A stretch of DNA of 64,000 bases, from assembly GCA_015143295.1 (NCBI GenBank), contig CM026570.1:26915250-26979249 (forward strand), written 5' to 3'. The notes below the pieces were generated by a model that saw only the letters and a list, made by a program, of their open reading frames with translations, did not search any database and had not been told where the DNA came from. The DNA comes from Tetracentron sinense (taxonomy: Eukaryota > Streptophyta > Magnoliopsida > Trochodendrales > Trochodendraceae). The position numbers and the translations under genes are program-made. This document shows, one piece after another, positions 33,301 through 39,300 of the stretch. How positions within the stretch are numbered: position 1 is the stretch's first letter; every line of letters begins with the position of its first letter.

Positions 33301-36300
33301 TAACGGCCGAAACCGTTACGTAACGGTTTTGGCCGATACCATTATGGTGGCCGAAACCCTTCTTTTGATCATTGCTCAATATTGTTGGTTTTATGAATTT
33401 ATAACTAAGTAATATTTATTACTATTTTCTGTAATTTTAATATATTTTTTTAATCATTGCCGAGATTTAGGCGAGAAATACTCGAAAAAATTTCAGATTT
33501 GAAAATCTCCCAAGAAAAACTCCGCCCAATAAAAACCCGAGAACGAAATTTGTAACACTACTGGTAAGAGGGGTCTAATTCTGAAGGAATATTTTAAAAT
33601 TTACAAGTTAATTCGGAGTTTATAAATCATAGCAGTTATAAAGCAAAGGGGGAAGTTCCCAATATTTCCTGGATCCAACATGTATAGACGAACACAAGGA
33701 GATTATTGAGGTGCTTTGGTTTGGCTTGATGCAATAGAGGCCTGCAACAAAACAAAAGACAAAGCTATCCTACAAGGACCAGAGATTATAAGAGACTACT
33801 CTGGGGTACTTAGTGGTGGAGGGCACTCCTCCAATGGTATAAAGTTCCCAAGGAGGGGATAATGAACTTAGGAGAGTCTCCAATGTTATTGATGAAATTA
33901 AGGAAGTTGTGAAGGGGAAGAACTATTATTTTTTGTCGTGCTCCGAAATCCGTCATCTGCTCAAAGGATATGCAGTCCTGGATATCCAGCTAGGGGAGGG
34001 AAGGCTGGTTTGACCAATAGTGATAGCTAGTCATCGGCTAAATGAATTGGAAGACTTCCTGATCAAAGAAAAAAGGTGGCATACGGAAGCCTTTGTATTT
34101 CTCTTCCCTAGCTTTGGACATTGTTTCCACAATACAAGTACTCTAGATAACTCATCCAACAAAATTTGGGAGAGTTTTCCTTGGCAAAATACTCCCGAGA
34201 AGATTTGGAATAAAGACTAAAGAGTGAAGCAACTCACAAATCACAACAAATGTACCTCCGATTTTGACAATCATGGTGGCTCCTCTTTTGACTGATAGAC
34301 CATGCATTTCCACTCCTGTCTGCATTGGCTGCTTTTCATGCTACATTAAGAATTCCAAATTTTACACAATATAGGCAGTCACATCCAAACTCACCTGATG
34401 TCACAAATATGTTCATTTATTGAGGAATTAAATTGTGACCGAGCCAACTGTGACTCAGCATACTCGTGCCATTATTGAGCAGTGCTGATAGAAGCCAGTA
34501 ATTAAGTGACTTGGCAAAGTCACATCAACTTGCAGCATATAACAACTCAACCAAGTAGGAACCACCTCATTTTGGTCTTGGTATTGCTCGAATCACATAC
34601 CAAAACCAAAACTTAATCCTTGTCCTCGACAGTGCATGAGTTCAAAAACCAATGCAATCTGGGATAAGTAAAACACTCTCAAATGGAAAATCGGTACATA
34701 GGCAGTGTCAATCACCCCAAAATGATGCAAGACAAGTTCTCAAACTCTACACACATACTCTATAGAATAAACCAACATACTATAACCTCATATTATGCTC
34801 AAGTCTCTGATATGCGTCCCTAGTTTCCTACTAGGGAAATGCACATTAAGAGGTTGGTTTTTCCAACAAATCTAGCCCATGCACAATTCTAGATACATGG
34901 AGTATTATTCAAGCATTATTAGACAACAAAATCATGACAACAAAAGAGACCATGCCATTCCTTGAAAATTACAAGGTGTCAATCCTCAAGACATGTCAGA
35001 TGGAAGCCTCATGTTGATATGTATTATGTCATATGAGACCAACTCAAAACAGTCAATCCAATAGGATGCATGTGGCTAGCCACCAAAGTTTCCCCTTCGA
35101 CTAACCAATATCTGGCCATGTATGGATCATTTGCAGTTTCTCTGTTCCAACCAAGATCCTAGTCAATAATTTTATTTTCTTTTGCCGAAAATGCCTCTAG
35201 AGCTAAAGAGGAAGTTCTAGAATCCAGACAAAAATAAATTTTTAACATAAGAAACAACTAATCCTTGTAATAATAATTTTTGAGACTGCAATCTTATTCC
35301 TCCTAGTTTTAAGCAACTAAGTAGCAGTATGTTAAGTATAACATTTATATGCAAGCACTACAGCATCAGTTATGGACCAGAGGTACAAAGTTGATAAAGA
35401 GGGAAATTGTCATACTTTTTACTTATTCGACTGAAAAAGAAAAAAAAATTATGTATAGCAGAGAAACTAAGTGAATAAGAATGATTTTGATGTCTCTTAC
35501 AGCTGCTCTGTTTCATAGCACAGCAACTAAAGGGTAGAAATGTCAAAGAACAGTAGTTGAAAATAGTCAAGAAGAATATCATAATTTTTTTAAAGGGTAA
35601 TGCATTAAAAGCTAAGCTATTTCCATCTTCAAAGGGCAGGAACAAACAATGCAACAATTGATTGGCAGGGATGCGCTTAGGAAACACCTTCTGAACATGA
35701 GAAAAATAACAGTAAATAAGTTGGTAAGTGACCTTTTCGTGTATAAAGTCGGATGAAAAGCCTCTGACTATCATCTGAGAGTGACTTGAAAGATTCTGTC
35801 AACAGATAACACAAATATTAAAGTCAGAAATACTAAGAAAACATAAGAAATAACAACGCAAAGTGCTCGAACTGGTACCTAGAAACAGTTTTTCATCATC
35901 TGTGAAAAGGTGAGGGTGATTCCTCAAAACCTCTTGGACTAACAAACAAAAATTCTGCTGATATTTTGTCATGCTGGGGGGATAAGCTTTCGCATTTTCA
36001 ACCACGTGAACCGCATTTTTCCACAAGGACTCAAAAAGCCGAACATCATTAGATTCTTTTTCACCATGTAGTGTCATTTCTTGGCACACTATCTGAATTG
36101 GAACAACATCAAGAGAATGTTTTGGAAGAGAGGTCACACATCCCTGCCAGACATATCCACAGTACGATTTCATGAGGTTCAGAGTGGTCAAATCTAGCGA
36201 CCATGGATTATTTACATCATACGATGTCATATTATGACATACAATCTTAATTGGAACATCCAGTGGATGTTTTACAAGAGAAATCACATATCCTTGCTAC

Positions 36301-39300
36301 GCATCTCCACAGTTATGCAGAAAAATTCAACAGCACAGAACAAACATCGGGAAACCAGTAGCATCACATGAATCTAGGTCTATGACATCTCCACACCACA
36401 TAACACCACATCTCCACTCTATGTTGTCGGGAGGAGGGAGTCATCCACTAGTCACTGTCATGAGAGGAGCATCAAAACCGTTTTTCAATCTCTCAGGGAT
36501 TTGGCTGAAAAACCTGGTGCTTCTCCAGCATACTTGTGTCTCTGGCAAGCGAAATTTGTGGACATGAGTTCGTTTTCTAGGTGGGTTTGCTGCTGAGTCT
36601 AGTGAGGGTAGGCACATTGGTTGGCTGCCATTGTTGAGTTCTTGTCCCTATCTTTCTTCTCTATCTCACTGTCATCATTGGTTAGGTTAGGCTCTCATCT
36701 GGTCTTGGTTCCTGTATTTTCTCTCCTGGTCATCTTCCTCAGTTTCAGGTGTTCGGTTGTGTTTTTTTTTCCCCGTCAGTCATCTTCCTCAGAGCTCTCA
36801 AGAGTTTTCTCATCTATAGATTTGGGGTTTTGTCAGTGTCTTTCTAGTGTGGAGGTGTCTTTTGATTTGGATCATGTTTGTCTCAATCTGTTGGAGATGC
36901 TCCTATCGAATCATATCAAATTTTTTTCTCAGTTTGTGTGATAGCATATCAATGACTTTGCGTAATCATTCTTTTGACATGGAGTTTAAGTCGTTCGACT
37001 TGAAAGAAGTAGAGAAGAGTTCAGAGCCTTGTATCAAAATCACAGACAGAGGTCAAGGAGTCTACGTTAGTGCTATGGGGGTTCCAGAGGACGCGTATAG
37101 TTGGGTGGAAAACTTGGTTGGTAAGCTTCTGAATGCCTGGAAGCAGTATTTGGTGAGAAGAATCATGGGCAGTAACTGCTCCTTGCGGAGAGAAATAAGA
37201 AGCAATGATAAGGGTGCTTATAAGGTGTTAATGGCCTTCCAGGCAGGGCAATGCTAAATGGGTGGTATTCCCTGAAGGGGAGCTCAAAGTGGGCTGGAAA
37301 GCTTTCGATGCTGCTATCAAATACCTTGTTACCAAATCGAGGACTAGGGAAGTGATGGATATCAGGCCTCACAATGACTTATAAAACATCCAAGTTAGAA
37401 TGCAGCTGCAGCGTTGAGGGTGAACTCTATGGTGGGTTTTTCCGGCCATGTGGAAACGGAGGAGGGTGTTAACATCGTGGTGGTAGACTTAGACGTGTGC
37501 ATTCGATCGTTGTTCCAACACGGTGGTGTGTGTTCAATTGATGGTGCGACTATTGAAGGTGATTGGGAGGAGGTTACCCAAGCAACATAGCACTTATTAA
37601 TACTTTAAGCTATGAATATGTTTATGAAGGCGACAAAAATATATCCAGAAAAAATTAAGTGCAAGCAAAAAGACAACAATATTATGTTCCTCAACAACAA
37701 ATGCAAGCCTGCAATGGAAGATACATAGGACTTCAAGAACTATACTAATACTTTCCAATAAAGACTTGCAATACCTCAAAGTTCATGCAATACTTCTCAA
37801 TTAGAGGAGAGATATATCGAGCCAACTCTCGAGGAAGAAAACCAAGTACGTTATGGGTACCAGAATCTGAAGAAAGCACCTGACTCAGAGGGACCATGTG
37901 AAGCCTTTAAAATGAATAAATCAAAAAAAGAAATCTACATCAAAGTATAAATAAAAAAATCAAAAATGTAACTGAACCTTGATAGCATTGGGATCCTTGA
38001 CATTATTTGGGTCTCTCACAAAATAGACACTAGCTCCTTGCTTTAACTCAACTTCATCATTAAACCTCCGGCCAACAATAAAAGTCTCAAGAATTGCCCC
38101 AGATATGTCATCTATAGAAACACCAATATCAAGCTCAGTCATCTTTGAATTAGGGTGTAATGATGGAGTGTCCAACTCCTTATAGTAGACAATGTCATCC
38201 CTGGTTGGATTTTCCACCGAAACCTCTAAATAAGTTTCTACAGTAGATTCTGCATTTGAGGGTGAAGTGCATTGATTTCCATCATTATCTTTAACAGCAC
38301 AATCAGGCAACATAAGAATGCTATTCTGTAGAGGATTGTTATCAGGACACCTTCGCATTACATTGGCCCCTTTATTATTTAATTCAATAGAGTGAATTTC
38401 ATCCTTCGATCTTGAGCAAAAGTTTAACTGAAGAAGTGTGCACTGGGACATTTTCCGTTTGGTTCCTCTAGTAAGACATGCATCTACAAACCAATGTTAG
38501 AACCATAAGCATCAAAGAGTATAGAACCAATAAACAACAATGTCAAGCAAAGCTATGTCAATAAACTTGGAACACGATGGATATCTTACTATCGTAAATT
38601 TAACAAAAGAGGAAGTTTATTGGACTAACAATACAGGTTTCTTCTTTACATCTACGAGACCTCCTTGCACTTAAGACGCCAAATCATCAATCTGAACGTC
38701 CAAATTGTTTGGCCAGAAGTTGTATAGGCCACACCCCAAAATTCACACTGTTCTGTAACCACAACCATCTGATCGATTCAATTCTGACCATCGAATTGCA
38801 AGTTTAAGATTGTCCAAATTAGAGCCCTGAATTGGAGCGCAGACAGTGTGAATTTTGAGTTCAGCCAATCTAAAAGGTGGACAACATTAGAGCAGCATAG
38901 ATTGATACTGGTGAACACACATTAACCTCACTACTTCTGGAGAATTGCCTATGAAGGTCCTTGACACAATGGTTAGGATTGTCTGAAAGATGTGAATTTG
39001 GATTTCTGACCAATACAAGAGCTTCCCAACATTCTTGTCACGTTTATGGAACCCCAGTAGATGAAGTGATGAAGCCTAGAATGCCAGTCCATGAAACCAG
39101 TCTTCTTAACTAGACCCTGAATATGGAATACAGATAACCAGAAACTACTGGAACGAAATTCAAGATAAAGGATAAGCCTCTCAATCATTAGGTGCTACTC
39201 TATGAGTTTCGCCACGGACAATTTCTCTAGAAACAATAACCTGAATGTGAAATTATCAAATTTTGCAGTTTCTATAGATTTAAACTATCAAGATTGGATA

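Follow-up and report, generated by a model that had tools for sequence, protein, structure and literature searches.

Duplications that cross the border between an intron and an exon raise the question of whether the additional copy contributes to the protein or is simply left behind as part of the intron. The FAN1 gene of Tetracentron sinense, located on the minus strand of a 64,000-nucleotide (nt) stretch of genomic DNA (assembly GCA_015143295.1, contig CM026570.1, positions 26,915,250 to 26,979,249; hereafter the window, with positions counted from its first letter), presents such a case, as the edge between its intron 4 and exon 5 is present twice. A first-pass annotation had proposed that the plant could make a longer FAN1 by splicing to the outer, upstream copy. 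Our analysis agreed with the duplication, the open frame, and the presence of a candidate acceptor upon which this proposal was built, whereas the acceptor scored weakly and the tests for constraint stayed within neutral expectation, with one simulation leaning toward partial constraint. A longer FAN1 may possibly be made, as judged from the DNA sequence, but the locus is probably best explained as an old duplication spanning a 3' splice site, whose outer copy is now a drifting intronic relic that is normally skipped.

The two copies (Table 1) yielded a local alignment score of 251, compared to a mean of 74.0 (standard deviation 12.3) for shuffled sequences, and 0 of 2000 shuffles scored as high. 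A blastn comparison of intron 4 with the window likewise recovered the pair (75% across 92 columns, E 5e-11). The inner copy includes 94 nt of exon 5, which is 265 nt long, in agreement with the earlier description of the duplicated portion as the first third of the exon. The ungapped core of both copies has a start-to-start spacing of 153 nt, about one quarter of the sites are mismatched, and within the coding part the copies first differ in length by a single codon (DVVP in the inner copy and DVP in the outer copy). Synonymous divergence (dS) between the copies is 0.53-0.62 (7.5 synonymous differences over 17.8-19.8 sites), which would very roughly date the duplication to 40-200 million years ago at plant substitution rates of 1.5e-9 to 7e-9.

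Candidate extensions of this similarity did not stand out. The upstream intron tails, which would hold the branch site and pyrimidine tract, aligned no better than chance (60 of 300, 257 of 500, and, in another form of the test, 723 of 1000 shuffles were as good). The spacer between the copies was unalignable beyond chance to the upstream tail of the outer copy, as well as to the sequence with which exon 5 continues (491 of 1000 shuffles as good), with the tested pieces deviating by a few bases from the spacer limits given in Table 1. A third copy of the edge was found neither at 36450-36316, where 1048 and 365 of 2000 shuffles were as good against the two copies, nor at 37774-37600 (707 of 2000 against the inner copy and 1164 of 2000 against the outer). 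The event may have been a tandem duplication whose longer tails later lost their resemblance, or it may have produced a dispersed copy of roughly 107 nt. Searches of a viral collection and of a bacterial and archaeal collection returned 8 and 45 pattern matches, respectively, with 0 confirmed relatives, as expected for a plant gene. No account of this FAN1 duplication appeared among the matches listed from the literature on FAN1, HIRAN, and splice-site duplication, which is not proof of its absence.

At the junction, the outer copy reads TAGCAA and the inner copy TGGCAG. The outer copy has AA where the inner has AG, and an AG three bases upstream would set an exon start at 36296, just as the first-pass annotation had noted. 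Its description of the one AG as lost and the other as new is a possible reading, as two copies by themselves do not reveal the ancestral state. NAGNAG tandem acceptors contain two AGs three bases apart, and the outer TAG is similarly positioned three bases from the site aligned with the canonical AG, although neither copy is a NAGNAG site now, since each has only a single AG. The 153 nt from 36296 to 36144 contain 0 stops and are in phase 0 with the end of exon 4 at 37775, which bears out the claim of 51 open, in-frame codons and implies that any transcripts using the outer acceptor would be read through into exon 5. Among the 15 AGs in 36500-36144, only those with exon starts at 36296 and 36245 would permit in-frame read-through.

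The position of the junction within the protein differs from what had been supposed. The HIRAN domain (PF08797) matches residues 223-305 of the spliced protein (E 2.2e-15, 56.7 bits vs the Pfam cut-off of 24.7). Since the first residue of exon 5 is residue 296, the exon 4/5 junction lies inside HIRAN and the end of this domain is encoded by exon 5. The extension would therefore not add a repeat right after HIRAN, as previously suggested, but would instead yield a long form in which an altered HIRAN end is followed by a linker and by the proper end. Exon 4 alone scored 52.7 bits against the HIRAN profile and the canonical join 60.3 bits, whereas the spliced combination of exon 4 with the outer copy, ending where the canonical exon begins, scored 53.9 bits and the whole alternative product 52.9 bits; removal of the extra Gln from exon 4 plus the outer copy gave 57.8 bits. 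In an alignment to the HLTF HIRAN, which is described as a six-stranded barrel with two helices (PMC4666394), FE/GCVTS is placed on IE/GVVPF, with the slash marking the junction.

We next consider the strength of the acceptors, which were scored with an ad hoc matrix of plant preferences, as were donors with a similar ad hoc matrix; all splice-site scores and ranks given here refer to these matrices. The outer site scored 2.6 and the inner site 7.2, while the six other acceptors of the gene model ranged from 3.8 to 8.7 (the one preceding exon 8 being uncertain), making the outer acceptor the weakest of eight. Among the 111 AGs in 37740-35900, the outer site ranked 21 and the inner site 2, and 997 of the 3759 AGs on the minus strand of the window scored as high as the outer site. 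Its immediate context includes GGAGA at -12 to -8 and a C at +1.

Comparison of the copies offered no clear sign that the outer one has been retained as coding sequence, and neutral drift was not rejected. Over 24 codons, the copies differed 5 times at the first codon position, 4 times at the second, and 9 times at the third, roughly as expected if one copy is constrained and the other free. The ratio of nonsynonymous to synonymous divergence (dN/dS) between the copies was 0.36, 0.45, and 0.49 over 24, 26, and 27 codons, respectively. When a neutral outer copy was simulated next to a constrained inner copy, 18-33% of the open pairs had a ratio of ≤0.36 and 22-41% of the outer copies gained a stop. 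The amino-acid differences of 7/23 and 10/26 compare with simulated neutral means of 8.6-8.8 (P 0.19-0.24) and 11.1-11.5 (P 0.28-0.35). With the outer copy held at a dN/dS of 0.2, the mean differences were 5.3-6.6 and 7.1-8.7, and 72-98% of the runs were at or below the observed values; such a copy is also compatible with these counts and is not excluded by them. As for the domain itself, 20 simulated neutrally decayed copies, conditioned upon an open frame and the observed 15 differences over 69 nt, scored 53.9-64.7 bits against HIRAN, with 5 of the 20 falling under the 57.8 bits of the outer copy. The outer copy is thus within the simulated neutral range, and its fit to the HIRAN profile shows no sign of constraint. 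These simulations assume the inner copy minus one codon as the ancestor.

From these results, we favor a scenario in which the 3' edge of intron 4 was duplicated long ago together with the first third of exon 5, as the similarity of the two copies indicates. The inner copy (36143), joined to the rest of the exon, would have remained the coding copy, while the outer copy would have turned into a part of the intron and drifted. Splicing would normally proceed from 37775 to 36143, with the outer TAG at 36298-36297 serving as a weak acceptor that is perhaps used on occasion. Low-level use of this site is possible, and the resulting long product, with its disturbed HIRAN end, is probably not selected for.

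A number of observations weigh against this scenario. The U content from -50 to -4 is higher at the outer acceptor than at the inner one (0.45 vs 0.32). The outer frame stays open through 51 codons; as many random codons of intron composition would do so with a probability of 0.05, or roughly 0.14, as a product of figures, if 24 coding-derived codons are handled by simulation. For 23 random codons of this composition, the probability is 0.26. The phase of the outer frame would match by chance in 1 of 3 cases. The dN/dS between the copies is also <1, and a simulation of the codon-position counts, in which stops were scored as misses, reproduced the observed counts in a fraction of 0.009-0.013 of the neutral runs, compared to 0.021-0.025, 0.010-0.021, and 0.004-0.016 of the runs with the outer copy at a dN/dS of 0.5, 0.2, and 0.1, respectively. 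Thus, a ratio of 0.5 fits 1.8-2.3x as well as neutrality and a ratio of 0.2 fits 0.75-2.2x as well. The position counts thus lean roughly twofold toward partial constraint, too small a margin to decide the matter.

The alternative that survives best is regular use of the outer acceptor as an alternative 3' splice site. The resulting FAN1 isoform would be 51 residues longer, taking its HIRAN end from the outer copy and then carrying that end a second time. The open and in-frame extension is consistent with this, as are the U-rich stretch and the TAAC branch-like motif found by eye upstream of the site, the low dN/dS, and the mild lean of the position-count simulation toward partial constraint. 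However, the weak site score and unfavorable context (GGAGA and the C at +1), together with a likeness to HIRAN no greater than that of neutral simulations, lead us to regard it as unlikely. Less probable still is a new intron, in which a small exon of 54 or 81 nt (36296-36243 or 36296-36216) would be followed by the removal of 99 or 72 nt ending at 36144, adding 18 or 27 residues. Both candidate donors, the two that scored best, are in phase 0; the frame would be kept through either join, and the donor scores of 1.0 and 1.1 are within the range of the six gene-model donors (-0.1 to 4.9). On the other hand, this arrangement would also depend upon the weak outer acceptor, both donors are missing the G at -1, and an intron of 72 nt is close to the lower size limit for plants.

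The layout of this second alternative has a precedent, which is part of the reason that we retain it, albeit at a low probability. According to a report on the potato RNA-dependent RNA polymerase (RdRp) gene PGSC0003DMG402000361, an intron was gained there through a duplication crossing an intron-exon border; the new intron combines a little exon sequence from the upstream copy with the intron sequence of the downstream copy, and 106 RNA sequencing reads spanned the join (PMC4974935). As in that plant gene, the duplicated piece of FAN1 runs from the 3' end of an intron into the 5' portion of the exon that follows (17 + 94 nt in the inner copy), and because the duplicate spans both, a second acceptor lies downstream of the upstream exon piece. 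In the potato case, the copies are in tandem and differ at ten nucleotides, and the new intron is supported by RNA (PMC4974935), whereas the FAN1 copies differ at about one quarter of their sites and have an altered outer acceptor and longer tails that do not align beyond chance.

It is more doubtful again that the outer acceptor is constitutive, with the 51 residues forming part of the standard protein: the open frame does run on into exon 5, but the inner site far outranks the outer one among the 111 AGs (2 vs 21), and the canonical product is the better HIRAN match (60.3 vs 52.9 bits). Chance similarity or an assembly error in place of a duplication is very unlikely, since none of the 2000 shuffles reached the alignment score and copies differing at about one quarter of their sites are not one sequence assembled twice.

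The gene in which this duplication resides was identified from its spliced protein. FAN1 exons 1-6 join into a single open frame, and the translation contains, in addition to HIRAN, a FAN1_HTH domain (PF21315) at residues 356-434 (E 7.6e-18, 64.6 bits vs the Pfam cut-off of 27). It also matches human FAN1 in PDB (best E 8.3e-11). Close to the N-terminus, a zinc-finger-like CPVC...HLDAC motif was noted by eye, for which PDB matches included RAD18 (E 0.0005-0.005) and WRNIP1 (E 0.13). Arabidopsis FAN1 (AT1G48360) has HIRAN where human FAN1 has a SAP domain, according to PMC4402529, and the T. sinense protein resembles it in having HIRAN and FAN1_HTH by Pfam as well as the N-terminal motif. Unlike the Arabidopsis gene, which is 4382 bp as a whole in that source, the recognized exons 1-8 of T. 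sinense alone cover 24 kb, with large insertions in the introns, and the start of exon 5 is duplicated. The gene extends toward the left edge of the window, where an open segment at 981-730 (minus strand) resembles a later FAN1 exon by eye, although a 68-residue piece of it had no Pfam match; if it is truly an exon, the gene would be ~40 kb long.

Table 1. Coordinates of FAN1 exons and of the features surrounding the duplicated exon 5 edge (window positions)
Feature	Position	Strand	Basis
FAN1 exon 1	40259-40167	minus	joined open frame
FAN1 exon 2	40067-39887	minus	joined open frame
FAN1 exon 3	38483-37978	minus	joined open frame
FAN1 exon 4	37879-37775	minus	phase 0 at its end, 37775
FAN1 exon 5, canonical, 265 nt	36143-35879	minus	open joined translation; HIRAN and FAN1_HTH in spliced protein
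FAN1 exon 6	35795-35733	minus	joined open frame
FAN1 exon 7	near 16531-16457	minus	ends by eye; exon 7/8 join uncertain
FAN1 exon 8	near 16336-16221	minus	ends by eye; exon 7/8 join uncertain
Outer copy of intron edge and exon 5 start	36310-36204	minus	alignment with inner copy
Inner copy (final 17 nt of intron 4 and initial 94 nt of exon 5)	36160-36050	minus	alignment with outer copy
Spacer between copies	36203-36161	minus	unalignable beyond chance to outer upstream tail or exon 5 continuation
Candidate outer acceptor AG (TAG/CAA)	36298-36297	minus	sequence; ad hoc matrix score 2.6, rank 21/111
Canonical exon 5 acceptor AG (GGCAG/GGA)	36145-36144	minus	sequence; ad hoc matrix score 7.2, rank 2/111
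Candidate 51-codon exon 5 extension, 153 nt, outer TAG acceptor to base before 36143	36296-36144	minus	translation, frame table
Two possible in-phase donors, exon ends 36243 (GTATGT) and 36216 (GTAAAT)	36243-36216	minus	ad hoc matrix scan

Other elements were observed within and around the FAN1 introns. In intron 4, the strongest of the 111 AG sites in 37740-35900 is located 66 nt into the intron (37774-37709, minus strand; TATCTTCCATTGCAG, next base 37708). It is within the best 8 of the 3759 on the minus strand, ~0.24 such sites being expected among 111, and joining at 37708 would lead to a stop after five codons by eye. This AG may be due to chance, or it may be an older or unproductive acceptor. 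The same intron also contains an insertion-like piece at 36820-37381 (plus strand) with broken frames on the strand opposite FAN1. It was likened by eye only to the first open reading frame of plant long interspersed elements (LINEs), and none of the three pieces tried matched a Pfam family above cut-off. Between exons 6 and 7, a tandem array at 28578-29954 repeats a 40-base unit ~35 times (or an 80-base unit 17.5 times) where the DNA is very rich in AT (23% GC across 28001-30000), and pieces of a hAT-like transposon lie at 30007-31490 on the plus strand (DUF659 E 6.4e-31; BED zinc finger 19.8 bits, just under the cut-off of 20.6). A broken LINE-type retrotransposon is found at 7530-10326 on the minus strand, with pieces of a reverse transcriptase at 8199-8750 (E 2.9e-07) and, below cut-off, at 9030-9365 (E 9.1e-05). 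The segment at 7560-8001 has a 71% blastn match to 17325-16882 on the other strand. A group II intron match at 1600-1674 (plus strand; 40.2 bits vs a gathering score of 40) is possibly organelle-derived DNA.

If the outer copy is merely a decaying relic, it cautions against taking an open, in-frame extension next to a genuine exon as more than weak evidence of use. It is unlikely, though worth considering, that the duplicated edge now serves either as a regular alternative acceptor or as a small exon plus an intron, such that the crosslink-repair nuclease FAN1 would exist in two forms differing at the end of HIRAN; since the alternative joins keep the frame, a tolerated or useful isoform would be possible. 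Duplications that cross an acceptor provide a natural path by which alternative 3' splice sites and new introns can arise, and if relatives of T. sinense keep the frame open, this old copy would represent a later stage than the young case in PMC4974935.

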